Assembly: GCF_032884065.1 (NCBI RefSeq)
Contig: NC_088868.1
Location: 5,211,647-5,275,646, forward strand
Length of the DNA: 64,000 bases
Direction of reading: 5' to 3'
Origin: Artemia franciscana
Taxonomy: Eukaryota; Arthropoda; Branchiopoda; Anostraca; Artemiidae
Shown here: positions 1,097-63,732 of the stretch, in pieces
Position numbering within the stretch: the first letter of the stretch is position 1
How the letters are laid out: each line of letters starts with the position of its first letter
Notes under the pieces: generated by a model
What the model was told of the DNA's origin: nothing
What the model saw: the letters and a program-made list of their open reading frames with translations, nothing else
The model's database searches: none
Program-made: the position numbers and the translations under genes

Positions 1097-3975
1097 ATCC
1101 GAAAAAAAATAAAATGCCTCTATTTCAACGCTAACTCTCTCTTAAACAAAATGGAGGAAGCAAAGCAGGTTATCAAACTGGAAAATCCGGATATTGTGGC
1201 AATAGTAGAAGTTAAACCAAAAAACTACAGATACTTACCTACCGTCACAGAGCTCAGTATCGAAGATTATTATCTGTATGAACAAAATCTGGAAGAGAAT
1301 ACAGGTAGAGGGATAGTCTGCTATTGTCGAAAAGGCATCAACGTGCATCCAATATCGAGGTCAACCGACACGATTGAGCCCAAAGAAAGTCTGTGGATCT
1401 GCATTAAGTCTAAAACGACCAGCGACACTGTTCTTGGGATCTGTTATCGTAGCCCCAACAACACTAACACATCCGACGAAGCTCTGTTCTCGCAAATAGC
1501 AGCATTCGCTAAGAACACCAACCAAAAGCTTGCTATTATAGGAGATTTCAATCTCCCTAAGATAGACTGGAATAGGCGATACACCACGGAATCTACCGCA
1601 AGCTTGACGAGTAAATTCCTGGACGTTATTAACGAACACTTTCTAGAGCAGCTAATATCTGAGCCAACAAGGATGCGGGGATCTGACACACCAAGTATCC
1701 TCGATTTGTTACTGGTAAGCGATGGAAACCTGTTATCAGATATTAAGCAGTTGTCACCAACTGGTAAATCGGATCACTCGGTAATTGTGTTTAGCTTGGA
1801 AACGGAGGTTTTGAGGACACGTGTGGCACCGAAACGTAACTACTACAAGGGAGATTACGTTGCTATGAGAAGAGAGCTTTCGGATGTCAACTGGATTGAA
1901 GAATTCAGTGGGTTGGAGTCGTTAGACACCATTTACACAAGGTTCACTAAGATTGTAGCCTCAATGGAAGAACAATTTATTCCTATGCACAATAAATACA
2001 CCCGTGTTGCATTACCTAAAGCCAATATTGAACTGATTAAAGCAAAACAAAAAGCATGGAGAGACTACAAAAGTAATCGACAAAGTAACGACCGAGAGAA
2101 AACATTCAAGAGGCTCCGCAACAGGGTTCGAAAAGCAACAAGAAGAGAAGGAAAGCTTAGAGAACGTAAATTAGCTTTCTCCTTGAAAGAAAACCCAAAA
2201 AGTTTCTGGAAATACGTAAACAGCAAAAGGAAAAACAAAGGTGGAGTCTCATCTGTTTACGATCCCGTGAAACAAAAGCTGGTACACGACCCCACGGACA
2301 AGGCAAATACTTTCAACAGCCAGTTCTCTTCTGTTTTTACTCAGGAACCTGAGAACGAAGACCACTTTAGCCCCAAGGAACCAATTCAGGGTATAAGCGA
2401 ATTGATAAGACCGATAGAGATCAAACATAGCGATGTTCTAAAAAAACTCAGAGAACTTAACCCAAGCAAGTCCATAGGCCCAGACAATCTACATCCAAAA
2501 CTGCTCAAAGAACTTGCAACGGTAATGACAGAGCCACTAGTCTACATTTACAGAAAGTCTCTTGAACTCGGTGAGCTTCCCGCTATTTGGAAAAAAGCTA
2601 TTGTCGTCCCAATATACAAAGGTGGGAAACGAGAAGACCCATCAAACTACAGACCGATAAGCCTCACTTGTATTACGTGTAAAGTACTTGAGTCTCTCAT
2701 TGCAGACCACACCCTAGAACACTTAAAACGAGAAAAAATACTTACCGAAAAGCAGTTTGGTTTTCTTAAGGAACGATCTGCAGAGATCCAACTGCTTTGT
2801 GCCACAGATGATTGGAAGAAAAACATCGACAAGGGGTTCCAGATTGATCTCATATACTTGGATCTCAAGAAAGCCTTTGACAAAGTTCCCCATAAGCGTC
2901 TCGTCAAGAAGCTCAGGAAATACGGTCTCTCCTCATCCGGGTCCTCATTCAGTCTTCTTCAATGAATTACGGACTTCTTAACTGGCAGAAAGCAAGTTGC
3001 GTGCGTAGAAGGTTGTCTCAGTAATACCGAAGAAGATGTTCTTAGCAGAGTACCCCAGGGGTCAATTCTCGGCCCCCTTCTGTTTAATCTCTACATCAAT
3101 GACCTAGTTGAGGGCATCAAATCTGACATCCTTCTCTACGCGGACGACACAAAGCTCTATCGCGTCATCTCGTCATGTGAAGACATTCACCACCTGCAGG
3201 CGGATCTCCAACGAATCGATGACTGGATGAAGAAGTGGATCATGGAAATCAATACCCAGAAAAGTCATATATCCTCACTCTGGGTCCACAAAACTTTTCG
3301 TCCTCATACTTTCTTGGTTCCGCTACACTCACTCTTAGTAGAGAAGAAAGAGACCTAGGCATCTTAGTGGATTCTGAACTGAACTTCAGTAGCCACTATG
3401 AAGCTGTCGTCAAGAAGGCTTCCAAAGTTGCTGGTATGATCAGAAGAAACTTCTCGTGCGAAGACGACAAAATGCTTGCTACGTTCTATAAGTCCCTTGT
3501 CCGCCCGATTCTTGAGTATGGACATTGTTCTACAAGACCATACTACAACAAGGACATAGATGCTCTCGAAAATGTTCGGAGGAGGATAACTAAATTCTCT
3601 CCCAGGTTACGTTTCCTTCCCTACGAAGAGCGGCTTAGAAAGCTTGAAATCCCAACCCTCGCCTATAGATTCCATCGTGGTGACCTTATTGAAATGTACA
3701 AGCTCTGCAATGGAGCCTACGATAACGTACCAGCCCAGAGAATCGTGCAGTTCAATAAAAATCATCTCCGAGGACATCAGTACAAAGTGAGTATGGAACG
3801 TTTTTACAAGGACATGGGCCGATGGACTTTCGGCAACCGAGTTGTTCAGCATTGGAACAACTTACCAGAAAGAGTAATCTGCTCCACAAACCTACGGACA
3901 TTCAAGAAGGCAGTTGATGAATATTATTCAAGTGACATTTTCTCCTTATGCAAATTTAGAAGAAATGCAAATTAA
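1097..3975 (+). pseudogene. LINE ORF2 (APE endonuclease + reverse transcriptase), one stop and one frameshift
   Basis: The product would nick the target and copy element RNA. Endonuclease signs are VAIVEVK (catalytic E), IGDFNLPKIDW and SDHSVIVF. RT signs are the NYRPISLT block, LDLKKAFDKVPH (motif A), VPQGSILGPLLF (motif B) and LLYADDTKLY (YADD, motif C); a thumb and C-terminal region run to 3975. The frame opens before the first ATG at 1151, because family-like residues (CLYFNANSLLNK) precede it. Two lesions are visible: a TGA at 2963-2965 where relatives have tryptophan, after which the same frame resumes, and a net -1 shift near 3258-3270 after the YADD motif. Apart from these the protein is well kept, so inactivation is probably recent. 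Confidence 0.9.
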
Positions 3976-15889: not shown

Positions 15890-18800
15890 GATTAAATGCA
15901 AGTTTTCAAAGCCAACCTTGCGTTTTTGGCATCCTGACTCAGATGTCTTTTTGTAACTGGTCCAATACTATTATAAATCGGTTTAGTAAAATATTTTGTT
16001 AGGTCATTTTTAATTAAATTTGAGTATAAAGAAATTAGTGAGTACTCCCCCAAAGTCCCTAGTCAAAAAAATATTATTATTTATTTTGAGACTAATTTCG
16101 ATTGATTCCCCAACCACCAGTTTTATCCCCAAATCTTTACTTATGAGTGAAGATTTTTCAGAAAGTACCGTGTAGGAGGGATTACTAAATATATGCCAAC
16201 CTAAAGCAGAATCAAAGGCGTTATTAGAACTTTTTGAAATTAATGCCTTGTCTATGTCTTTTTTATGCTGGTGTAGCCGATTTTCTCGATTCTGATGAGT
16301 CCTGCCAACATAGTAATTTCCACAGTCACAAGGAATTTCATAGACCCCTCTTTAGAGAGTAACTGAGGTTTTATCTTTACTGGAATTTAAGAAATTAATG
16401 GTTTTAAAATTATTAGTAAAAACTACAAACAGATTATTTTTTGTGCAAACATTTTCTAATTTTGTTGTGATTTTTGAAATATACGGAAGATAGATAATAT
16501 TTGAGGGCTCAGTAGACTCACATTGTGACATATGTTCAAATTTACGGGAATGTCTTTTTAGTCTACGGTTAATTATCTTATTGACAAAAGGAGAGGTATC
16601 CATTACCAAAAAGAATATCTCTGATAAAATTTATTTCTGCATTTATATACGAATCAGAGCAAATATTAAGGGAACGATCGATGAGAGAAGTTATAAATGC
16701 TCTTTTAACTTGTGGGGGGTGATTTGAATTAAAATAAAGATATCTGCTGTTTTGCGTTGGCTTTTGATAGATAATAGAATCCAGTTTATAAGTATTAAAT
16801 AAAAATAAACAAGTTTTTTTAACTGAAAGTCAGGAGCGACATTAAAACTTAAAACGAACAGAAATTACTTCGTATATGAAAGGGACTGATCCCTCTTCAA
16901 CGCCTCGCTCTTTACGCTAAAGTTTTTTATTTTTTAAAAAGCAGAGTTGTGAGAAAGAGTCGAACATTAGCGTAAAGAGCGAGGCATTGAAGAGGGAGCA
17001 GCCCCTTTCATATACGAAGTAATTTCTGTTCGTTTTAAGTTTTAATGTCGCTCCTGACTTTCAGTAAAAAAAAACTTGTTTTTTTTATTTAATTTCTGAA
17101 CGTTTTTTAGTTAATCCATGTTTTGATTTCGGCTCTCCGCAGATGAATAATTAAAACGAAGTGTACATATTTATTTATTTTGCTAAGTGGCTTTCCCATA
17201 GTTTTGATCGAACGATTTTGAGAAAAAGGAGGGGGATGAGGCCCAGTTGCCCTCCAATTTTTTGGGTACTTAAAAAGACAACTAGAACTTTTAGTTTTTT
17301 ACGAACGTTTTCATTAGTAAAAGATATGCGTAACTTACGAATTAGCTTACGTAACTTCCATATTCGTATGTTTTTATTACGTATATGAGAGGGTTCGCCC
17401 ACTCGTCAATACCTCGCTCTTTACACTCCAGCTTAAATTTGGTCCTAATTCCTTAAGAATGACCCCTGAATCACAAAGGCCGTAGAATAAATAGTTGAAA
17501 TTACTAGAAATACTTTAGCTTAAAGAGTGAGGTATTAGGAGGAGATGAACCCCTTATGTGCGTAATATTTTCTGTTCGTTTTAAGCTTTAATGCTGCTCC
17601 TTACTTTCAGTTGAAAAAACTTGTTCATATTTATTTTTTCATTGTTTTTTTTTAAATAATGCTAGAAAATGCACCACCCCCTTCATGGAAATCTTATTCC
17701 CCCATGACAAATTCCTCCATGGAAAGTTTCCCCCACGTAACCCTCTCTTCTCAACCCTTCCTCCTAACCAAAGAATCCTCATGGAAACGTCTGTACACTT
17801 CCCAATAACCATTACTATATGCAAACACTGGTCAAAGTTTGTAACTTGCGTGATCGGTCTTCTGGCAAATTTGGCATATTTTTGTAGATAGGAGCTTGGA
17901 ACTTGTACAGTAGGGTTCTCTGATACGCTCATTCGGAAGGTGTGATTTTTGTTAATATTCTATGACTTTTAGGGGGCGTTTTCCCCTATTTTCCAAAATA
18001 GGGCAAATTTTCTCAGGCTCGTAACTTTTGATGGGTAAGACTAAACTTGATGAAACTTATAAATTTAAAATTAACATTAAAATGCGATTCTTTTGATGTA
18101 ACTATTGGTATCAAAATTCCGTTTTTTACAGTTTTAGTTACTATTGAGCCAGGTCGCTCCTTACTACAGGTCGTTACCACGAACTGTTTGATTACGAATA
18201 ATTAACACGTCAAACAACGGTAGGTTATTTTCAATTTCAACTTCTAGGGTAAACTGCAAATTTTGGTCATAAGTATTAAGATGATCTAAGAAGCCCCAAA
18301 GCTCAGCTTCCCCGTAATTCCAAAGTGAAATTACGTCATCCATATAGCGACCCCAACAGATGTCTTTTAAAAAAAAATAGGAATTTAATGCCCAGTTTTC
18401 AAGGTTCTCGACAGAAATATTTGCCAGTAGCCCGGATAAAGGTGCCCCCATGGGTAACTCATTGTTTTGCTGATAAAAAGCATCACGAAACTGAAAATAC
18501 ATAGAAAACTTATTAGAAATTTTAGATATAGTCATTGAAACTTCACAATCAATTCCTGTCCCTTAAACCTCGATTAAGCGATAATTTTCTTCTATTTTGT
18601 TTTTAAATAATTGCTCAGAAATAGCCACATCTATATTCGTATATAAGTAAACAATGTCAGAACTACTAACTATTGTGATTTCTGAAATACTTGTGTTATT
18701 AAGTTTTTTAACTAAATCTGCTGAGTTACGAATATAGGAATTGTGGGAATACAATAGAGGTTTGAAAGCTGTGCAAAGTCATTTTCCAATATTGGAAGCG

Positions 18801-19480
18801 GGGGCTTTAGTACATGCTACGATAGGTCTGAAGGGAATACCTTGTTTATGTATTTTTGGTAAACCGTAGAGTTTGGGACAGGAACTACCACGGCGGAAAA
18901 TTTATTGTATAATTATGGGGTGATTTTACCATTCTGTTTTAGCTGCTTTAATTCATTTTTATAATATTATTAACAAACTGATCAGTAGGATCACGAGTTT
19001 TTGTTTTATATGTAGTTGTGTCATTTAAATGTGAAAGAAATTTGTTGTCATAGTATGTCGTATCCATTACAACAAGTAAATTGCTTTTGTCTACTTTAGT
19101 TATTATAATAGAGGAGTCTTTGTGGAGATTAGATAGTATTTTTGTGTCGTGCAAATTTTTCGGTGTGAAAGTGGTAGGAGGATCAACCTTTTTTTGGCTG
19201 TTATAAAGGGTATTTATGAGACAAGACCTAAATTCATCAGGGTTAGAAACAGATGGGTAGTATTTATGCAAAGCGGACTCTAGTGACGAAACTATATTTG
19301 CCACGGGACCTTGTCTCGATAGAAAAGAGAATTTTGGACCTTTTTCCAGTGTTTCGAATTCCTCGGGTTCCAACGTTTTAGAAGAAAGGTTAACAATAGC
19401 AGGTCCAGGAGTGAATTTTGAGGAATAAATACGGTTTCTCATCGAAGATTTATTTCTCAAGCTTTCCAACTTTTATAAAG
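15890..19480 (-). pseudogene. Penelope-like retroelement (RT + GIY-YIG), interrupted by repeat A
   Basis: A Penelope-like element encodes one protein with RT and a C-terminal GIY-YIG nuclease that primes reverse transcription. On the minus strand, 19469-18948 gives the N-terminal region (PTTFTPKNLHDTK, ITKVDKSNLLVVMD). From about 18880 come CPKLYGLPKIHKQG and RPIVACTKAP; 18535-18164 gives LPMGAPLSGLLANI and RYMDDVISLW (YMDD motif) and NNLPLFDVLI. After a 1.4 kb insertion the frame resumes near 16795 with IIYQKPTQNSRYLYFNSNHP and then a GIY-YIG core (GVYEIPCDCGNYYVGRTHQN, near 16300-16350). Stops near 18568 and 18778 and a frameshift between 18948 and 18840 disable it. The 5' flank up to about 19980 shares the terminal phrase gcagtgtggtcttcg. 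Confidence 0.85.
16802..18190 (+). mobile_element. Repeat A: palindromic element inserted in the Penelope-like copy
   Basis: This ~1.4 kb segment splits the Penelope-like ORF exactly and recurs at 34016-35768, 36245-37914 and partly at 29040-29800. It has three hairpins: a long inverted repeat at 16808-17080 (arms ~110 bp, with cgacattaaaacttaaaacg and its complement), a second imperfect one at about 17374-17568, and a terminal one (ACAGTTCG, six-base loop, CGAACTGT) at the right end. It has no long ORF. ATTA flanks both ends and may be a target duplication. Non-autonomous; class uncertain. The terminal hairpin and lack of clear TIRs would allow a Helitron/Helentron-related origin, but no CTRR end was seen. 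Confidence 0.8.
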
Positions 19481-44433: not shown

Positions 44434-44578
44434 ACGCATAAACTTCTGTTAGCTGCAAGCAGCTCATACTTTCATGCCATGTTTTTAAGCGACTTGGTGG
44501 AAAAACAGCTGGATGTTATTAATTTGCAGTCAATCACTTCTGATATATTTCAAATGCTGTTGGATTTTGTTTATACAG
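44434..44578 (+). CDS. KLHL-family protein, exon 2 (residues 60-107, BTB core)
   Basis: The exon begins after ttttttttcag and reads THKLLLAASSSYFHAMF, then SDLVEKQLDVINLQSI and MLLDFVYT. This is the conserved BTB core (H.L.LAA.S.YF.AMF) and the 'LL.FVYTG' helix. Its 145 bases run from phase 0 to phase 1: the last G joins GT of exon 3 to make the glycine of 'YTG'. The donor is GTAATT. It joins exon 1 seamlessly at VEGTYFK. Confidence 0.95.
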
Positions 44579-44799
44579 GTAATTGCTTTATTTGACTTTA
44601 TTACTATTAAGATTATTATAAATAATGGTAACTAAGATTACTTTGTTGATTTTTGCATTCTTTTAATGGAATATTTTGTTTAATTTTTTCACCCAATTTT
44701 TCCTGTTTAATATTATGTTGAATCTTTTGTGTTTATGTTCAACTGAAATTTTACCTTTCTAGCAGTGAATGAAATTTCAATGAAATCAGTCAATTGCTA

Positions 44800-47375: not shown

Positions 47376-48074
47376 CTCGTTTTTTGCCCTTCCAAGCGTA
47401 ATCAATTTCTAAATCTTAAATATAGAAATAGTGAAAGGACCAAAAGAACTACAAGCATGAAAATAAATAATAAAAAGATAATACACTGGCGAAATTTTAA
47501 AGACAGTGAATTGTAGAAGAAAAGTAATTCAAATTTTTGCTAGATATCTAGTAGCCGTCCACAGAAAAATTGAACAGTAGAATAACTCTGCTAAATAAGA
47601 AGGTAAAATTTTAAAAAAGTACCATTTTTTTAAAGGTTAAAAAAGATATAAATAAGGTAAATTCAGCGTGTGGTTAAAATGGAAAGCTCAAAATAAAACC
47701 AACAATAAAGCAGACTTAAGTGTCATTACTTTAAGCATGTTCAGCACGGGTATAACTTCGTCAACATCCAGGGGGGGGGGGAGGCAAAGTAGGAACTGAT
47801 TTTCCCAAGTCGATTGAAAATGGTTGAGTGGAAAATGAGCCATATAGTACCATAAAGACAAAGGTAGACTAAAGAAAACTGATCTGTTTCTGTGGATCCT
47901 TGAATTATGTAGGTCTATCTTAATTTTGACAAGATTTTTGAAGACATTAATTTTCAGCTAGGGAGGGGGGCAAATTGGGGGTGTTGGGAGCAATTGTCCC
48001 CCTACCCTGTAGCAAATTAAGCCCCGAACGTTCAGCTGTTGTATACGGCACAAAAACACTGCCATGTTCTTGTA

Positions 48075-48515
48075 GAAATGAAAAAAAGAAGGAAGTACAT
48101 AAAAAAACTGCCACGTTGTTAAAAAATACAATCAAAAGAAGGAAGGACATATTAAAAGTGTCACCTTGTTATAAAAATCCAAGAAAAAGAAGGAAGGGCA
48201 TAAAAAACTGCCTCGTTGTTATAGAAATGTAAAAAGAGGAAATTTGAAGATAAAAGCACTGCTCACGTTGTTGTAAAATAAATAAAAAGAAGGAAGGGCA
48301 TAAAAACAGTGTCACCTTGTTATAAAAATACATAAATAGAAGGAAGGGCATAATTCACTGCTCACGTTGTCATAAAATTAAAAAAAGAAGCAAGTGTCAC
48401 CTTATTATAAAAATACATAAAAGAAAAACACTACCAAGTTGTTCTAAAAATACAAAAAGAGGAAATAAGGGCATAAAATCAATGCTCACATTGTCATAAA
48501 AACTAATATCTCTTT
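48075..48515 (+). repeat. Minisatellite, ~45-50 bp unit, about nine copies
   Basis: Diverged units carry agaaggaagggcataaaaac, tgccacgttgttataaaaat and the alternative gtgtcaccttgttataaaaa. Two sub-types alternate irregularly. Confidence 0.8.
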
Positions 48516-48529
48516 GAATTGATGATTAA

Positions 48530-49235
48530 GATATGCTGCTTCTTTTTAATATGTGTTCGTTTTATTCCCGTCACATCCTTTTTATTTCCTGTGATAATCC
48601 TGTCACAAATTCTTGTAAATTCTTAAAATTTCAAATACTTGTTGGTTTTAATTCTGTCATATCCTTTTTAATTCCTGGGATAATACTGTTGCGAATACTT
48701 GTAAAATGACGACAGTTACATTATTTAGTAAGATAGTGTAAGATAGATAGTGTAAGGTAGATAGTGTAAGGCATGCTGTTTCTCATATAGATGTGCTCGG
48801 TTATTCCTGTCACATTCTGTTTAATTCCTTTGATAATCCTGTTACAAATTCTTGTAAATCTTGTTACAGTTACATTATTTAGTAAGATAGTGTAAGGTGT
48901 GCTGTTCCTCTTTAATATGTGTTCCTTTATTCCTGTTACATTCTGTTTAATTCCTGTGATAATTCAGTTACAAGTCCTTGTAAACTGATTACAGTTACAT
49001 TATTTAGTAAGATAGTGTAAGATATGCTGTTTCTCATATATTTGTGCTCGTTTATTCCTGTCACGTCTTGTTTAATTCCTTTGATACTTCTTTTACAAAT
49101 TCTTCTAAAATGACGACAGTTACATTATTTAGTAAGATAGTGTAAGATGTGCCGTTTCTCTTTAGTACATGTTTGTTTATTCCTGTGACATTCTGCTTAA
49201 TTCCTGTGATAATTCTGTTACAAGTTTATTGATAC
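48530..49235 (+). repeat. Minisatellite, ~123 bp unit, about six copies
   Basis: Units carry gctgtttctctttaatatgt, gtttattcctgtcac, tctgtttaattcctgtgata, ttacaaattcttgtaa and acattatttagtaagatagt. The second unit is partly deleted. Confidence 0.85.
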
Positions 49236-49289
49236 AGGCATTGGGACTTCATAAAACTAGATTAATATTGATGGCCTAAGTATTTGGTA

Positions 49290-52285
49290 TCTGGAAAGAC
49301 TAGCAGGAAGTCCTGTATGAAGATTGGTTGTGTATCTTCATTCCGAATTTTATTTGCTGATTTTATTGGCTGATATCAGAAAAGATTAGAAGGAAGTCCC
49401 GTATGAAGAATGGTTGTGTATCTTCATTCCGAATTTTATTTGCTGATTTCAGAAAAAATTAGAAGGAAGTCCCTTATGAAGAATGGTTGTGTATCTTCAT
49501 TCCGGATTTTATTTGCTGATTTTATTGGCTGATATCAGAAAAGATTAGAAGGAAGTCCCGTATGAAGATTGGTTGTGTATCTTCATTCCGAATTTTATTG
49601 GCTGATATCAGAAAAGATTAGAAGAAAGTCCCGTATGAAGAATGGTTGTGTATCTTCATTCCGAATTTTATTTGCTGATTTTATTGGCTGATATGAAAAA
49701 AGATAAGAAGGAAGTCCCGTATGAAGAATGGTTGTGTATCTTCATTCCGAATTTTATTGGCTGATATCAGAAAAGATTAGAAGGAAGTCCCGTATGAAGA
49801 ATGGTTGTGTATCTTCATTCCGATTTTTATTTGCTGATTTTATTGGCTGATATCAGAAAAGATTAGAAGGAAGTCCCGTATGAAGATTGGTTGTGTATCT
49901 TCATTTCGAATTTTATTGGCTGATTTCAGAAAAAATTAGAAGGAAGTCCCGTATGAAGAATGGTTGTGTATCTTCATTCCGAATTTTATCTGCTGATTTT
50001 ATTGGCTGATATCAGAAAAGATTAGAAGGAAGTCCCATATGAAGATTGGTTGTGTATCTTCATTCCCAGTTTTATTTGCTGATTTTATTGGCTGATATAA
50101 GAAAAGATTAAAAGGAAGTCCTTTATGATGATTGGTTGTGTATCTTCATTCCGAATTTTATTGGCTGATATCAGAAAAGATTAGAAGGAAGTCCCGTATG
50201 AAGATTGGTTGTGTATCTTCATTTCGAATTTTATTGGCTGATTTCAGAAAAAATTAGAAGGAAGTCCCTTATGAAGAATGGTTGTGTATCTTCATTCCGA
50301 ATTTTATTTGCTGATTTTATTGGCTGATATCAGAAAAGATTAGAAGGAAGTCCCGTATGAAGAATGGTTGTGTATCTTCATTCCGAATTTTATTGGCTGA
50401 TATCAGAAAAGATTAGAAGGAAGTCCCGTATGAAGAATGGTTGTGTATCTTCATTCCGAATTTTATTTGCTGATTTTATTGGCTGATATCAGAAAAGATT
50501 AGAAGGAAGTCCCGTATGAAGAATGGTTGTGTATCTTCATTCCGAATTTTATTGGCTGATATCAGAAAAGATTAGAAGGAAGTCCCGTATGAAGAATGGT
50601 TGTGTATCTTCATTCCGATTTTTATTTGCTGATTTTATTGGCTGATATCAGAAAAGATTAGAAGGAAGTCCCGTATGAAGATTGGTTGTGTATCTTCATT
50701 TCGAATTTTATTGGCTGATTTCAGAAAAAATTAGAAGGAAGTCCCGTATGAAGAATGGTTGTGTATCTTCATTCCGAATTTTATTTGCTGATTTTATTGG
50801 CTGATATCAGAAAAGATTAGAAGGAAGTCCCGTATGAATATTGGTTGTGTATCTTAATTTCGAATTTTATTGGCTGATTTCAGAAAAAATTAGAAGGAAG
50901 TCCCGTATGAAGAATGGTTGTGTATCTTCATTCCGATTTTTATTTGCTGATTTTATTGGCTGATATCAGAAAAGATTAGAAGGAAGTCCCGTATGAATAT
51001 TGGTTGTGTATCTTAATTTCGAATTTTATTGGCTGATATCAGAAAAGATTAGAAGGAAGTCCCGTATGAATATTGGTTGTGTATCTTAATTTCGAATTTT
51101 ATTGGCTGATTTCAGAAAAAATTAGAAGGAAGTCCCGTATGAAGAATGGTTGTGTATCTTCATTCCGATTTTTATTTGCTGATTTTATTGGCTGATATCA
51201 GAAAAGATTAGAAGGAAGTCCCGTATGAATATTGGTTGTGTATCTTAATTTCGAATTTTATTGGCTGATATCAGAAAAGATTAGAAGGAAGTCCCGTATG
51301 AAGAATGGTTGTGTATCTTCATTCCGAATTTTATTGGCTGATATCAGAAAAGATTAGAAGGAAGTCCCGTATGAAGAATGGTTGTGTATCTTCATTCCGA
51401 TTTTTATTTGCTGATTTTATTGGCTGATATCAGAAAAGATTAGAAGGAAGTCCCGTATGAAGATTGGTTGTGTATCTTCATTTCGAATTTTATTGGCTGA
51501 TTTCAGAAAAAATTAGAAGGAAGTCCCGTATGAAGAATGGTTGTGTATCTTCATTCCGAATTTTATTTGCTGATTTTATTGGCTGATATCAGAAAAGATT
51601 AGAAGGAAGTCCCGTATGAATATTGGTTGTGTATCTTAATTTCGAATTTTATTGGCTGATTTCAGAAAAAATTAGAAGGAAGTCCCGTATGAAGAATGGT
51701 TGTGTATCTTCATTCCAAATTTTATTTGCTGATTTTATTGGCTGATATCAGAAAAGATTAGAAGGAAGTCCCGTATGAAGAATGGTTGTGTATCTTCATT
51801 CCGAATTTTATTGGCTGATATCAGAAAAGATTAGAAGGAAGTCCCATATGAAGATTGGTTGTGTATCTTCATTCCCAGTTTTATTTGCTGATTTTATTGG
51901 CTGATATAAGAAAAGATTAAAAGGAAGTCCTTTATGATGATTGGTTGTGTATCTTCATTCTGAATTTTATTTGCTGATTTCAGAAAAGATTAGAAGGAAT
52001 TCCCCTATGAAGAATGGTTGTGTATCTTCATTCCCAATTTTATTTGCTGATTTTATTGGTTGATATCAGAAAAGATTAGAAAGAAGTCCCGTATGAAGAT
52101 TGGTTGTGTATCTTCATTCCGAATTTTTTTGGCTGATATGAAAAAAGATAAGAAGGAAGTCCCGTATGAAGATTTGTTGTGTATCTTCATTTCGAATTTT
52201 ATTGGCTGATATCAGAAAAGATTAGAAGGAAGTCCCGTATGAAGATTGGTTGTGCATTTTCTTTCCTAGTTTTATTGGCTGAATG
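49290..52285 (+). repeat. 3 kb minisatellite with 73 and 86 bp unit types
   Basis: About 38-40 units. The core runs ggctgatatcagaaaagatt, agaaggaagtcccgtatgaa, g(a/t)atggttgtgtatcttc, attccgaattttat. The long type has an extra 13 bp (ttgctgattttat) that is a near-copy of the neighbouring ttggctgat. Short and long units, and variants such as gaatattgg...cttaatttcg, recur in the same order over several hundred bases, so multi-unit blocks were copied (higher-order homogenisation). Units in the middle are most alike and those at the edges most diverged. Confidence 0.95.
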
Positions 52286-52454
52286 AGTCCAAATGCCCTT
52301 TATGCTTATAATAATATGGATCGGTATGCCAATTCTATAAGACTACATCTACTGTGTCTTCCTCAAATAATAAAACTGGTTTTCGATTGTTACCCGTGCT
52401 TTGTTTAGAATGCTCCTCACTGAAAAAAGGAACATGACAGTGTGATGAGAGAAA

Positions 52455-52835
52455 ATACCTTAAAGTGAAGCTCAAGGTGTTAGTGAGGCGAAATTGAAGC
52501 TTCAGATGACAGGACGCAACAAGAGGTAGTGAAACCTTAAAGTGAAGCTCAAGGTGTTAGTGAGGCGAAATTGAAGCTTCAGATGACAGGACGCAACAAG
52601 AGTTAGTGAAACATTAAAGTGAAGCTCAAGGTATTAGTGAGGCGAAACTGAAGCTTCAGATGACAGGACGCAACAAGAGGTAGTGAAACCTTAAAGTGAA
52701 GCTCAAGGTGTTAGTGAGGTGAAATTGAAGCTTCAGATGACAGGACGCAACAAGAGGTAGTGAAACCTTAAAGTGAAGCTCAAGGTGTTAGTGAGGCGAA
52801 ATAGAAGCTTCAGATGACAGACCGCAACAAGAGCT
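52455..52835 (+). repeat. Minisatellite, 77 bp unit, five copies
   Basis: Units begin ccttaaagtgaagctcaagg and contain gttagtgaggcgaaattgaa, gcttcagatgacagg and acgcaacaagaggtag. The period is exactly 77 bp (52458, 52535, ...), with very few substitutions, so it is young. Confidence 0.95.
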
Positions 52836-53380
52836 ATACGGTGTATCTACTTCTTATCTAAAATATACATTGCTCATAATATTAATGAATATCAAATTAA
52901 GAGTCTACTTATTGATATTTCATGACTAGAGATTTTCAATTTACTATTTTCACATTTAAATACCTTAAATTTAAATACCTTAACATTAAATACCACACTT
53001 AAATATACTTTTTTCTTCTTTCAATTCCTTTTTCTCGTTAATAGTAATCTCCATAATCATGATATGCGAGGAGTATCAAATCTGGTACATTTACTTAAAA
53101 ATACGACTAGAACTTCTTTGGTAATAAGAAAATTTTTCTCCCTGTGTATGGATTCCAGTGGCAATACGAAATGAAAGCCATCTGGTATTCTTCAAGACTA
53201 CAGCAAATAGATTTTTCATTGCAAAAAAATAGTAATCATGTGTTGTTTTTATGTAAGTAGGATGGGGGTTGTGTATGTTTGAATTGTGTATTAATGTCAT
53301 GTCGAATAATATAAAGTAGTGCCTTTACAATATGTAGAATAGAAAAGACTCCCACCTGCTGCCAACAAGCCCTTAGGTGT

Positions 53381-54099: not shown

Positions 54100-54265
54100 G
54101 TTTGCAGAGGATCATAATTTCAAGATTTTATCAGAGGCTGCCTTTAATTTTGTTTGTCAGAATTTTGTAGAAGTAGTCAAGGAAGAGGAATTTTTGGAAT
54201 TACCCAAACATATTTTATTAACAATTTTAGCTTCTGAGGACTTACGGATTGATGAAGAGTATCAG
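54100..54265 (+). CDS. KLHL-family protein, exon 4 (residues 155-209, BACK domain)
   Basis: The acceptor is gcattttag; the first G completes the arginine codon left open by exon 3. It then reads FAEDHNFKILSEAAFNFVCQ, NFVEVVKEEEFLELPKHIL and SEDLRIDEEYQ, typical BACK helices (FAE.H....L...A..F....F..V...EEFL.L). The donor GTAGGT follows CAG in phase 0. 166 bases, consistent with both neighbours. An upstream candidate acceptor (aattacag at about 54020) would break the frame and is not used. Confidence 0.95.
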
Positions 54266-55604
54266 GTAGGTAAACCAGTATCATCTTCAGATTTTCTTCC
54301 TTCTTATTTTATTTTTTTTTATTCCGTTTTATTCTTTATTCCTTTTTTCTCTGGTTTTATTATTCCATTTATTTCTTCTATTTTATTTCTTTTATCTTTC
54401 TCAAATCTTTTTTTGGCTCTTTTTAAGCAAAAATTAATCACAAAATGGGAAATTTTAGAAAGCCTTCTAATGCTTTCTCAAAAACCCCATGTGTATGCTC
54501 TCTGTAAAGAATTATACTTCAAAATTTTAGATTTTAAGAAGTTGAAGCTTCTTCCCATCATTTCGTAATGCCGTAAAAAAGGAAAAAACACTTAATTTAG
54601 TCATCGATCTCTGAAAGATGTTCTTTGGATTTTTTTTGTGTCTTGGAGCATCCCATTTTTTGAATTTGCAATTAAAACTTTGTTTTACATTTAAAAAAGA
54701 ATATAGTAATGAAGTATGTCAAATAAATCTGTATGTTATTTTGATCTGTATAATTTAGATATAGGAATGCATTCTGTACTGAATTTCAATGTTTAAAGAA
54801 AAAAAGGAAAACATTAACCTATAGCTTACGCAATCCTTGTCCCTTGATTTTTCTTTTACAGGTTTTTTTTATGTTGTATTTTGTTGTGGATGAACTCATG
54901 GAAAATACAGAATGTATTTTGTTGTTGGTCCAATGGGGGCCTAACAACGGATCTTTTTTAGCTCCTTTTTTATCTTTTTTAGCTCCTTTTTTAGGCCATT
55001 ACATTTAACTTGTATTGATAGAAAATATTGACTGTATGTTGTTTCCAAAATGTGAAACCACACTTTTTGTTTAAATTGCTGTGTAAATAACGCATATAAA
55101 ACCACAGCAGTTGATTAAATTAAAAAAAAATACAATGAGAATGCTTAAAAATAGTTTTCCTCAGACATCATTATTGCTATTATTATCACCAACATACAGT
55201 AAACAAACAATGCTTGTCGTTAAAGCTCTAAAATGCATCGGAGTCAGAAAACATTTTGTTCTTAAATATTTCATACATAAAGCATAGAAGAGATGCATTA
55301 TGGTATTCTAAAATACAAAACAGAATAATCATTTCAATAATCATTTTTGGGTAAGAAGCTTGCTATCTGTCTCTGTAAAAAACACTCACCAACTGAAACG
55401 TCGATTCGACGCCCTATGTGCTAGCAATGGCTCAGGAGGCCCCTTATTTATTTCATTTTCTTCTTTTAAGGCAACTTTTACCATCCAATTTTAACTTCTA
55501 AGACTGTTAATTTTCATATTTCTTTTTCCTTCAGTTAATGATATTTTTTGTTCCAGAATCCCTAAATCATGTAGATGCGCCTCTTTGACTATCTAATTAT
55601 CAAA
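54266..55604. other. KLHL intron 4, left part
   Basis: T-rich sequence starting GTAGGT, with no repeat or exon recognised. The frame open just after exon 4 is intron read-through. Confidence 0.6.
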
Positions 55605-55850
55605 GGGGTGCAAATTTAAAAAAAAGGGGGAAAGTGTAACTAGGATGTTATTCATAGGTATTAAAATCTCCCTCCTCCTTTATGTTAGGCTGTGTCACTG
55701 ATGGCCAGGAGTTTTTCTTTGTCATCACTTTTCGATTTTTTTTTAAGTAAATTGATTTAGCAATTGACTGACTCAAATTCTTTTCTTATCTCTCAGGATA
55801 GTATTTTCTTCAAATAAAAATAACGTATCTTCTTTTAAGTATTTCACTAA
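55605..55850 (+). repeat. Segmental duplicate of 58245-58490 in intron 4
   Basis: About 245 bp, ~90 percent alike by eye (gtaactaggatgttattcat, ctccctcctcctttatgt, gtgtcactgatgg, atttcact). The 58245 copy leads straight into the first decayed exon 5 acceptor copy; this one stops at the same point, in ttttaagtatttcacta. Confidence 0.9.
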
Positions 55851-58145: not shown

Positions 58146-58244
58146 TAGAGTTTTCAACAGTAACATTATACGATTTTCAGGAATTTTATTTTTTTGAATC
58201 ATGGGGAATGCTAATGAGGAAGTAAATTATTGTTATAAGACTCA

Positions 58245-58490
58245 AATGGGTGCAAATATAAAAAAAAGGGGAAAAGAGTAACTAGGATGTTATTCATAGG
58301 TATTAAAATCTCCCTCCTCCTTTATGTCAGACTGTGTCACTGATGGACAGCAATTTTTCTTTGTTATCACTTTTCAATTTTTTTGTAAGTAAATTGATTT
58401 GGCAATTTACTGACTCAAATTATTTTCTTATCTCTCAGAATAGCATTTTCTTCAAATAAAAATAATGCATCTTCTTTTAAGTATTTCACT
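58245..58490 (+). repeat. Segmental duplicate of 55605-55850
   Basis: See the partner copy. This copy continues without break into the first decayed exon 5 acceptor copy (aagtatttcactgtgcaattc). Confidence 0.9.
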
Positions 58491-59640
58491 GTGCAATTCC
58501 ACGGAGCAATTATAATTCTGATGAGATTCGATTTTTGTGAAAATTCTTAATCTCCTATGCATTTTTCCTATAAACAATACTAACTTTTTGGCATTTTATT
58601 GGATTTTAGGCATTTGATACCTCAGGCATTAGGCTCGTCAGATTTATCTATCCAATCAATTAAATATAATTCCGAAAAGCTGAATTTTATGTAAAATCTA
58701 ACCCCTAAGTTAGTTTTTCTATATATAATTGTCATGTTTGCTCTTTAGACATTTGATGCATCAGATCTATTAATTTAATCAGTCAAATATAATTCACACA
58801 ATTGTCGAGGGTTGTGTAACTTCAACCCCCAAGTTAATTTGTTTAACTTGGTTAGGGTCAGGTTTAACCTAACCCCAAGTTAGTTTGTTTTCTACAAGTA
58901 ATCTGAATGTCCGCTCTTTCGGTGCATTCGATTCATCAACACAATCGATCAAATATAGTTCTGGCAAGGGGGAAGCTTTGTGTACGTTCTAACCTCTAAG
59001 TTAATTTTTTTCCTGTAATTAGTTGTAATATTTCTCTTTAGGCCTTTGATGCGTTGAATTCATCAATCCAATTGATCAAATATAATTCAGACAATTGACG
59101 AATATTATATGAATTTTCTCTTGTTAGCTTAAACCTCTCGAGTGTTGGATTTTCTTATTTTTATCGCCCGAAACGAAACTATCCCAGAGATGAGTGCCGT
59201 GTCTCTTCTTTCTAGGTACTTAGCAGTGTAATCCGAGGATCGATTCTAGTTCAGGCAACTGTTGATTCTTGTCTATTTATGTCGAATTTAAAGTGTTTGG
59301 TGCATTGGACTCAATGTATAAAATATATTTTACACTGTGTGCATACTTTTATCTCTCCCTTTTCGACTTCAATTTCAAGAGCGTCTAGTTTTATCAAATT
59401 TCTTGTCTCTGAAATCAGTATTTTCTTTAGATAGAAGGAGAATCCGATGCGCCAAGTCTTGTTTAGACAACCTTGTCGACTTTATATCATCGATAGTCGA
59501 TTTTTTTTCTTCAGCGTCGAATTTTATTTGGTACTTAATCCGTCGGGTCATGAATCCGACGGGTCAAATCTTTTTAGTCGAACCTAGGCTATTATCTCTC
59601 CCGTCTATTTAATTTCTCGGATGTTGAAAGTATTTTTTAA
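58471..59640 (+). repeat. Decayed tandem copies of the exon 5 acceptor and exon start
   Basis: About nine copies of the sequence around the exon 5 3' splice site lie upstream of it, near 58471, 58605, 58744, 58913, 59036, 59211, 59290, 59420 and 59525, spaced ~105-175 bp. The reference is ctttag|GTATTCGACAG, TGCAATTCGG, TGGATCAAATCTAATTTAGA. Copies read, for example, tctaggtacttagcagtgta plus atccgaggatcg (59211), tttaggcctttgatgcgttg (59036), and aatccgacgggtcaaatctt plus tttagtcgaa (59552). An intron half-unit (taacctctaagttaattttt, ttctctttagg) also recurs. All copies carry substitutions, stops and gaps. Confidence 0.8.
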
Positions 59641-59683
59641 AGTAATATGTTCCATAAATGAAAATAATGTTTCTCCTCTTTAG

Positions 59684-59959
59684 GTATTCGACAGTGCAAT
59701 TCGGTGGATCAAATCTAATTTAGACGAGCGTCGGCAATACGTCTTTGAAATTTTAATTCATGTTCGACTTCCTCTCATATCAACTCGTGCTTTGCAAGAA
59801 TCAGTTGATTGCCTGAAAGATATCAGTCTTAAGGTGGCTCTCAAGAGTGTTCAGAAAGACGTAGAATTCCAGAAAGGGAGTCTCGTGACTTTATCTGTGG
59901 AGCCACGAAAGAGAGCCAAGAAACACATTTTCTTGATTGGAGGATGCAAACGAAAGTTG
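59684..59959 (+). CDS. KLHL-family protein, exon 5 (residues 210-301, end of BACK, first Kelch blade)
   Basis: The acceptor ctcctctttag precedes GTATTCGACAG in phase 0. It reads VFDSAIRWIKSNLDERRQYV, then LIHVRLPLIS (the BACK 'VF.A...W...D...R......LL..VRLPL' signature), then FQKGSLVTLSVEPRKRAKKH and IFLIGG, the start of the first Kelch strand. 92 codons, donor GTAGGT after TTG in phase 0; reading on past the donor gives a stop within five codons. Its acceptor region has been tandemly amplified upstream and its 3' end duplicated downstream, yet the exon itself is intact. Confidence 0.95.
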
Positions 59960-60013
59960 GTAGGTTCTATGTGAGTTTTCTGTAATCTAAGTGTAGTTCT
60001 ATGTAATCTAAAG

Positions 60014-60150
60014 AAGGTGAACGAAAGGCTTCAGAAGATATGAGATTCAAGAAAGGAAGTCTTGTTAGGTCATCTGTGGAGCCTCGAAAAAGAGCCAAGA
60101 AACACATTTTCGTCATCGAGGAATGCAAAGAAGTGTGAAAGCTTTATGTA
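60014..60150 (+). pseudogene. Degenerate duplicate of the 3' end of exon 5
   Basis: About 54 bp after the exon 5 donor, the last ~95 exon bases and ~40 intron bases recur: FKKGSLVRSSVEPRKRAKKH and IFVIEECKEV followed by a stop, against FQKGSLVTLSVEPRKRAKKH, IFLIGGCKRKL in the true exon. No good acceptor precedes it, the GG of the Kelch strand became EE, and the donor is lost (gtgtga). It looks like a non-functional tandem duplicate, though an unusual splice form cannot be excluded. Confidence 0.88.
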
Positions 60151-60422
60151 AGTTTTCAGACGAAAGTGCTGATACTCTGCAAGAATAGGGGCCACATCAT
60201 CAATTAATAAAGTGCATCGGGGGTAGGAGTAATCCCTCCAAAGACCAGCCATTTTCTTACATAAACGTCTGAGTCATTAAATCTTGTTTAAAGCATTCTT
60301 TAATTAATCTTAAGAGAAGCGTCTGTATTTTTCTAAAATTTTAAGGCTTCGAAACTTATATAAAAAAAAATAATAATAATAATATAAAAGAATGATAGTT
60401 AAATATATTGATAGTTAAAAGA

Positions 60423-62015
60423 ATGGTTGAATTTTTGGAGAGTAAATCATTTTTTAATCCAAATCAATTTGGTTTTCGGAAGGGTTTATCTACTGAGCAT
60501 GCTGTTTTATTTTTGACAACTTTTGTGAATGATGCGTTGGATAATGGTATGAAAGTCGCTTCTGTTTTGTAAAAGCTTTTGACTGCGTTGACCATTTTAT
60601 ACTCATTGCCAAATTAGAAAATTACGGTTTTAGAGGACCATTTCTTGAATTACTGTCCTCGTTTTTAAAAGAAAGAACTCAATATGTACAACTAGGAGAT
60701 AATGTTTCTTCAGTCAGTAGTGTTAAATTTGGAGTACCTCAAGGATCTGTTCTTGGTCCCCTGTTATTTCTAATTTTTATAAATGATTTATGTAGAGCTT
60801 TTAATATGATTTCGTATGATCTTGACATTGGATGTGACGGGGAAAAAGTAATTGTTCCCAGCTTTGCGGATGACACTCATATAACTGTGGCTGCACGAAC
60901 AGGAATTCAGCTGTTGAGTCGTATTAGTTCTTGTCTGGAGTTTGTACACAATTGGATGAAGCTTAATAAGTTAAATTTGAATTATAGTAAATCTTGCTTT
61001 TTATTGTATGGTAGGAGCTCAAATTATTACCCTTGGATAGATAGACTTAATATTGCTGATATGGGTATTCTAAGAATGAATTGTACAAAATATCTAGGAG
61101 TTTTAATTGATGAATGTCTCAGCTTTAGAGAACATATAGATTATATTAGTCTTAAACTCGCTAGGAATGTTGGCATTTTAAGAAAGTTGCAGTATATTTT
61201 CCCAAGAGATATTTTAAGAACAATGTATTATTCCTTAATTCATCCTTATCTGCTATATTGTTGCAATGTTTGGGGTAGTACATTTCCTTCTCATCTCGAT
61301 CGTGTTCGAGTTTTTCAGAATAAAGCGCTTCGAGTGTTATGTGGTGTAGGTTTTAAAGACTCGGTACAAAAGAGGTATATAGAATGCAAAATCTTGCCTT
61401 TAGCAGGACTTATTATTTTTTATCGAAGCCTGTTTATATATAAATATTTTCAAAATTGTTTACCAATATGTTTTAAAAGTATGTTTGAATTAGGAAGTGA
61501 TATTCATACACATTCTACGAGATAGTCCGATATAATTCGTCGTCCGCTTACTATTACTCGTAGATCTCAATTCTCTATTCGGCATCTAGGACCCCGTGCA
61601 TGGAATTGTTTACCTACGACTTTGAGAAACTTGGATAGCTTTCTTGAATTTCGGCGGGAATTAAAGCTATTTTGCCTTAATATTTATGGTTTTGATAGTT
61701 GAGTGGACCTCAAGTGGAGCCAAGATGTTGGTTTTGATTTTGACGATACTGGTAAAGTGGTTTTAGTTTCTTTTTGTTTTGTCTCTTTTGAAGTGTAAAT
61801 CCGTTTCGATTGAAATGCAGGGTAATTGATTTTTTCTTCTTCTTCTTTCTTTCTTTTTTCTTTTCCTTTTCTTTTCTTTTTATTTTTTCTTCTTTTTCGT
61901 ATTGTTTTATATGTATGTGTGTTGGGGTTGTAAGCCCAAACAAGCTTTGCTTCGGGCCATTTGCTTGTTTTGTTTTGTTATTTATATTAATAAACCCATC
62001 TTTTTCTCTCTAATA
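60423..62015 (+). pseudogene. Jockey-type LINE, 5'-truncated, in KLHL intron 5
   Basis: It starts inside the RT domain (NQFGFRKGLSTEHAVLFL). A small deletion at about 60566-60570 removes the LDL of motif A and shifts frame; the next frame runs from KAFDCVDH through VPQGSVLGPLLF (motif B) and PSFADDTHI (FADD, motif C) to KYLGVLIDE and a thumb segment. A TAG at 61524 interrupts the tail, which resumes in the same frame (RRPLTITRRS, LGPRAWNCLP) to about 61700. The 3' UTR is pyrimidine-rich and ends with taataaac near 61990. No endonuclease domain remains. Confidence 0.88.
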
Positions 62016-63546: not shown

Positions 63547-63732
63547 ATTGATCAAACAAGATCATGGGAGTATACGTACGACTCTGTGCTTAAGTTTGAC
63601 ACTTTTAGTCAGGTGTGGACTATGGCGAGTCCAATGAAGATTGGACGAATATTACCGGGCATTGCACATATGAATGGACGGATTTTTGTCATTGGAGGGG
63701 AACAGGAGAGCCAAATATTGGCTAACGGTGAA
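63547..63732 (+). CDS. KLHL-family protein, exon 6 (residues 302-363, Kelch repeats)
   Basis: It reads IDQTRSWEYTYDSVLKFDTF, SQVWTMASPMKIGRILPGIA, then HMNGRIFVIGGEQESQILAN, GE. This shows the Kelch pattern: a tyrosine/aspartate pair, W six residues on (QVWT), 'MKIGR...G.A...GRIFVIGG'. Acceptor ttttttag; most likely donor GTGAGC after GAA in phase 0 (62 codons). An alternative GTGAAG six bases earlier would drop two codons and is weaker. Further Kelch repeats and the 3' end must lie beyond 64000. Confidence 0.92.

Follow-up and report, generated by a model that had tools for sequence, protein, structure and literature searches.

The question raised by this locus is why the end of an intron should repeatedly carry altered versions of the exon start that follows it. 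The window analysed, 64,000 nucleotides of contig NC_088868.1 of Artemia franciscana, holds a gene of BTB-BACK-kelch type, with a BTB piece at 44461-44589 and BACK pieces at 54101-54265 and 59684-59968 in Pfam. Exon 5 (59684-59959, plus strand) is the source of the repeated border and encodes the second half of the BACK domain and a linker (Pfam E=5.1e-08 over 59684-59968). It is a phase 0 exon of 92 codons that begins VFDSAIRWIK, and its splice sites, read from the DNA, are an acceptor tttag|GTATTC and a donor TTG|GTAGGT. The preceding BACK exon (54100-54265, plus strand) encodes the first half of the domain (Pfam E=1.9e-13 for 54101-54265) and ends CAG|GTAGGT. The following exon (63547-63732, plus strand) is an open frame, DQTRSWEYTYDSVLKFDTFSQVW..., between AG and GT, which we take to be kelch-repeat-like coding sequence. 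Exon boundaries are predicted from sequence, not RNA, and the numbering of exon 5 and intron 4 is that of the preliminary description. Other BACK genes are present elsewhere in the genome (1.27 Gb, 6,468 contigs), and a protein search of the whole genome found no second close copy of exon 5, its own 3' fragment excepted.

Upstream of exon 5, at 58461-59592, the intron 4/exon 5 border recurs in about nine mutated copies. The repeated segment (59655-59735, plus strand) takes in about 28 bases of intron and ~50 bases from the start of the exon; sliding 40-nt slices have high z scores at 59660-59739, and a BLAST pair spans 59656-59728. The copies, all on the plus strand, form two sub-families, A with five copies and B with four copies and the true exon. 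Their order from 5' to 3' is B1 (58461-58537; 73% identical to the border over 55 nt), A1 (58596-58689), A2 (58728-58815), A3 (58896-58978), A4 (59024-59105), B2 (59199-59270), A5 (59276-59345, the weakest), B3 (59416-59487) and B4 (59502-59592), followed by the true border. Successive spacings up to the true border are 129, 139, 165, 128, 174, 78, 137, 84 and 169 bp, a range of 78-174 bp in place of the ~105-175 bp given in the preliminary description. In a repeat search the A copies recur at about 123, 166 and 127 bp, and the recurring intron half-unit mentioned in that description is indeed common to A1-A4. TRF at score 30 returned no row for this array.

The likeness of this stretch to the start of exon 5 exceeds what shuffled sequence gives. 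The nine best local matches of the first 59 nt of exon 5 to 58440-59670 sum to 264.5, against 150.1 ± 8.7 in 300 dinucleotide shuffles, none of which reach the observed value, and at most 165.5 in 47 other segments of the window. Five control queries were used. Those from 59743-59801, 59802-59860 and the start of exon 4 all fall below the shuffle mean; 59861-59919 and the reverse complement give slightly raised sums, reached by 18 and 22 of the 300 shuffles, respectively. In a sliding scan, z is as high as 9.5 in the slices at 59660-59739 and only 0.4 in the slice starting at 59720, and the similarity between array and exon ends ~50 nt into the 276-nt exon.

A profile of these matches is circular, since they were chosen by their likeness to the exon, and two checks were therefore made. 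A profile of four A copies, which the repeat search had picked out with no use of exon 5, places the border second of the non-training matches in the window (7.3 bits, E 0.17, weak alone). Its five best non-training matches, each weak alone, all lie within 58.4-59.7 kb, four on the plus and one on the minus strand. A profile of the nine best matches, with the exon left out, scores the exon border at 31.1 bits; the same pick-nine-and-profile recipe yields no more than 2.0 bits for the exon in 100 unrelated regions and no more than 9.0 bits in 60 random query/region pairs. Compared individually with the exon, 7/9 copies score above the 99% chance level (24.5). A5 (22.5) clears the 95% level (22.0) but not the 99% one, and A1 (20.0), which is below both levels and is not recognised on its own against the exon, is tied to A2, A3 and A4 by scores of 49, 38 and 50. 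Chance and low complexity are ruled out by the shuffles, the other window segments, the other exon slices and the circularity control. Border repeats in this kelch-type gene are thus confirmed as an observation: the exon start recurs in mutated form before the true exon, in about nine copies, as had been reported. The further proposal that the array was built from the border itself is supported by the confinement of similarity to 59655-59735 and by the exon-free profile, and the unit does include exon bases.

A tree separates the A copies from the B copies and the exon with support of 92/99, which is under the starred level. In the pairwise table, the highest means belong to A4 (39.7) and the exon (35.4), which would be expected of a selected exon with independently decaying copies and a secondary expansion of A. 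The slice at the exon start has an excess over background of 69.5, and slices within the array reach at most 38.2, the earlier ones having fewer upstream copies to match. Local repetition as such is common here, since 127 of the 1,344 window slices are at least as repetitive as the exon slice; 80 of those are in young arrays at 48-52 kb. These large tandem arrays occupy about 48000-52900, upstream of the BACK exons, with one at 50.5-52.3 kb and a second family at ~52.5-52.8 kb.

Two further duplications adjoin the array. A 249-bp stretch leading into copy B1 (58242-58490, plus strand) is 92% identical to 55600-55848 on the same strand, which ends ~10 nt into the exon-like part; no other place for this stretch was found in a whole-genome search. 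Downstream of the exon, 60045-60157 (plus strand) is a decayed copy, 78% identical, of the 3' end and donor side of exon 5 (59866-59980). Together with the upstream copies, it indicates that each border of exon 5 has been duplicated into the intron beside it.

Identity of the nine copies to the exon is about 62-76%, and ranges in the aligned exon part from 29/47 (A3) to 28/37 (B4). Mismatches number 32/123, 42/122 and 37/122 at the three codon positions, an even spread that makes the decay of the copies look neutral, as was originally suggested. In the exon phase all nine copies reach a stop before the true exon, after 7-72 codons, with B2 open the longest. It seems from their sequences that the border copies were not at any time kept as coding exons.

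Some copies nevertheless still resemble acceptors, which was also part of the preliminary description. TAG is in register in A1, A2, A4 and B2 (CTAG in the last), and A4 has a pyrimidine tract as well. Acceptors were scored with a matrix from 29 sites of this genome, in which real sites, when left out, have a median of 9.9 and the 99th percentile of AGs in the window is 9.1; the scores are approximate because some training sites, at least those of L010, L018 and L028, were wrongly picked. A1 (10.3) and A4 (10.4) approach the true site (12.7), and B2 (14.1) exceeds it. Acceptor-like sequence of roughly the strength of real sites is thus present in at least three copies. B4 has a site that scores 11.8, its register uncertain. 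The remaining scores are 4.6 (A2), 3.7 (B1), 3.8 (B3) and -3.4 (A5), and A3 has lost its AG, with none nearby. Neutral decay permits strong relic acceptors of this kind but does not require them.

The array is very probably the product of repeated duplication of the intron 4/exon 5 border, as a minisatellite of the type known in amphioxus as a "mirage", followed by decay of the upstream copies. A segment with ~28 bases of intron and 50 of exon, and a longer intron part in some copies, would have been duplicated again and again in direct orientation into the end of the intron, at least in part as a head-to-tail array lying across the splice border. The acceptor at the full exon would have kept its role, since no other opens into the complete reading frame. 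The copies before it, each of which runs into a stop before the exon, would have been free to mutate until they reached their present identity. The duplications may have arisen by slippage, unequal exchange or templated repair synthesis, and the gene is presumably still spliced correctly. What the sequence itself shows is the similarity, the exon edge common to the copies, the even mismatches and the stops. The irregular spacing of the copies and the lack of a TRF row for them are points against an array.

In amphioxus, tandem repeats that lie across intron-exon borders have been given the name "mirages" (PMC3087553). In the parts of the literature available, mirages are described in the amphioxus globin genes BflGb6 and BflGb9 and in Adh3, TnC and PGBD5 (PMC3087553, PMC3902484), with globin and Adh3 units of 10-160 bp in several copies. 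The BflGb6 units are 81-100% identical and vary in number between haplotypes, with 6 and 3 units (PMC3087553). Many globin units possess AG/GT signals, yet RT-PCR and the Adh3 data suggest that regular splicing is undisturbed (PMC3087553). Degenerate repeats occur within an intron of BflGb13 (PMC3087553), and the repeats of PGBD5 are called imperfect (PMC3087553, PMC3902484). The array before exon 5 has a unit that spans the border, several direct copies beside the true exon and splice signals in many units. The BflGb6 duplications, as far as that account describes them, are tandem and likewise couple the last part of an intron with the beginning of the exon that follows, and the splice signals kept in many mirage units have their counterpart in the TAG of A1, A2, A4 and B2. 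Unlike the BflGb6 units, the copies in the kelch-type gene look dead and are far more eroded, and the host is A. franciscana instead of a lancelet. Among the top-ranked results of a limited search of open-licence literature, no mirage outside lancelets was found. The array seems to be a decayed example of a structure already known, in what appears to be a new host group.

A young array of the same design lies elsewhere in this genome. A myosin exon encoding the P-loop (L074) is preceded by a head-to-tail array of four 53-bp units, each of 26 intron and 27 exon bases (G000:C4:16777954-16779669, positions 1318-1531; units at 1318, 1371 and 1424, true border at 1477). The three upstream units retain an intact TTTTTAG, their exon part codes for the start of the P-loop, and they match the true unit at 49-51 of 53 bases; TRF reports a period of 53, 4.1 copies and 92% matches. 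In identity this array matches the amphioxus mirages, as far as those are described in the sources available. Judged by its sequence, L074 would be a young, living counterpart of the decayed array in the kelch-type gene.

Single upstream border copies are present at five other exons. Four belong to BACK genes. In L032 (G000:C20:7699118-7699315 and flanks), positions 1060-1170 copy 1372-1482, including acceptor and exon start, over 111 bp at 89% identity and 312 bp upstream; the copied acceptor is intact and scores 10.7 versus 9.5 for the true one, which makes this exon a natural test of acceptor choice. The acceptor-border copies of L010 (74/110) and L028 (122/167) are more diverged, and that of L018 is less sure (71/101, gapped at the acceptor, with an ungapped 35-nt core inside the exon). 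The fifth, at myosin exon L086, is decayed and has lost its AG (58/76). At another myosin exon (L071; G000:C4:16801471-16803210, positions 1070-1171 and 1545-1646), a 102-bp exon piece lies 475 bp upstream at 99% identity without an acceptor, and 153 bp of intron are duplicated nearby at 93%.

Upstream acceptor-border copies thus occur at 7/35 exon loci, the window included, against ~4 expected from the repeat coverage of upstream introns (15.4%, 9.6% and 7.8%). The rough tail probability is 0.10, or 0.19 for 6/34 without the window, indicating no clear preference for borders; without L018, the weakest case, the count is 6/35. The loci comprise 15 BACK loci, taken from 30 fetched for 31 family matches after 14 clustered paralogs and the near-duplicate L011 were left out, and 20 myosin exons hand-picked, before their DNA was seen, among the 66 matches listed. 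The automated count was 4/15 for BACK borders with the acceptors of L010, L018 and L028 mis-picked; L010 was added, and L018 and L028 were judged by eye. L025 (z 6.5, a clustered paralog) was left out of the rate, and L071 was uncounted because its copy lacks the acceptor. Thirty kinase loci were scanned, with a highest z of 3.3, and were also left out because many of their matches start inside long open frames. Local repeats within 1.5 kb were measured across 58 loci and the window, 265,618 bases in all with clustered paralogs and young arrays counted in; direct ones make up 14.2% of bases and inverted ones 3.0%. At least one direct repeat is present in 37/58 loci and an inverted one in 20/58. 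Local direct duplication is thus general in this genome, and the array in the kelch-type gene is set against it. It is unlikely that border arrays form and die recurrently across the genome with the acceptor border as a preferred target, the window being a dead stage and L074 a young one, and that strong relics such as B2 are sometimes used and give rise to unproductive transcripts.

Successive single, spaced duplications by repair synthesis, in which a break is filled from nearby DNA, are a possible though doubtful alternative to a tandem array. In a reduced set (43 items, 223,011 bases), young local pairs with at least 85% identity comprise 33 spaced direct, 11 tandem direct and 8 inverted cases, but L008 alone contributes 19 of the 33, and some of the rest are skipped pairs within arrays. 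The copy at L032 is a clear spaced duplication of a border. Moreover, in the part available, Pace et al. describe, for primates and other vertebrates, short repair-mediated duplications lying within 5 kb, some over splice sites, with 4 of 824 donors classed as "partial exon/intron" (PMC2671141). These resemble the copies before exon 5 in being short, proximal and inclusive of splice sites; they differ in being single insertions, not arrays, with at least one exon example inverted. A1-A4 recur with a common intron half-unit, the likeness to the exon breaks off near exon nt 50, as expected of a repeated unit, and the L074 array is purely head-to-tail, all of which argue for repeated duplication of a unit. 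However, the divergence of the B copies is great enough that each could have arisen by its own spaced duplication and not as a turn of one array. Copying of exon fragments into an adjacent intron within one gene is likewise recorded in a catalogue, as match counts per genome; in the portion available, multi-copy border arrays are not singled out.

Other explanations assign the copies a function or a different source. An array kept as decoy or "poison" acceptors, tuning expression through unproductive splicing, would account for the sites in register of A1, A4 and B2 and the uncertain one of B4, which score like true acceptors and above the 99th percentile of window AGs, B2 even outscoring the true site. 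This is improbable, given that about half of the copies keep AG in register, roughly as neutral decay at ~70% identity gives, that the matrix behind the scores comes from only 29 sites, and that the young upstream copies of L074 score 7.1-7.7 versus 16.3 for their true site. It is very improbable that the copies are relics of a cluster of alternative, mutually exclusive versions of exon 5, despite A copies that read as BACK-like starts, e.g. AFDALNSSIQLIKYNSDN, and the 72 open codons of B2. Such a cluster is largely refuted by the short similarity, with no complete copies of the exon with donor sites, the lack of codon-position bias and the stops in all nine copies. Still less credible is that intron 4 was born by tandem duplication of an exonic AGGT segment, with copies left inside. 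The border does read AG|GT, and gain of introns by tandem duplication of exon sequence bearing AG/GT is documented in the sources as available (PMC2891723, PMC4974935); there, too, duplication makes extra splice signals beside an exon (PMC2891723). However, two paralogs have an intron at the same place and phase, EE[K/Q]|VF (L033/L030 and L018/L036, read from the DNA), so the array did not create the intron, and this origin is refuted unless the paralogs are younger than the array. In the kelch-type gene the intron was already in place and only its end was repeated. In addition, the match of the exon 4 end to the array is not clearly beyond background, being reached by 3/34 control segments. 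A transposon or satellite that resembles the exon by accident is the least probable source: the setting is repeat-rich, but whole-genome searches placed the array, the 249-bp stretch and the exon nowhere else in 1.27 Gb, with the qualification that the DNA search skips very common words and scores best candidates only.

Decay of a border-spanning minisatellite, if this is what the locus records, would extend such structures beyond lancelets. It would also show two life stages in one genome, four near-identical copies at a myosin exon versus nine eroded ones at a kelch-type exon. With several relics whose acceptors are about as good as real ones, the locus offers a natural experiment on how the splicing machinery chooses one acceptor among repeated near-copies. 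The young L074 array as a living counterpart and the survival of strong relic acceptors are the most useful new points.

Clusters of BACK-domain copies are present at G000 C10:5.60-5.62 Mb, C15:38.46-38.49 Mb and C19:35.88 Mb. Stop codons interrupt the matched part of most of them, which gives the appearance of tandem pseudogenes or of a diverged family. Within the window, reverse-transcriptase-like open frames lie at 60545-61522, 1097-3972 and 16013-19472, and are presumably LINE and Penelope-type elements.
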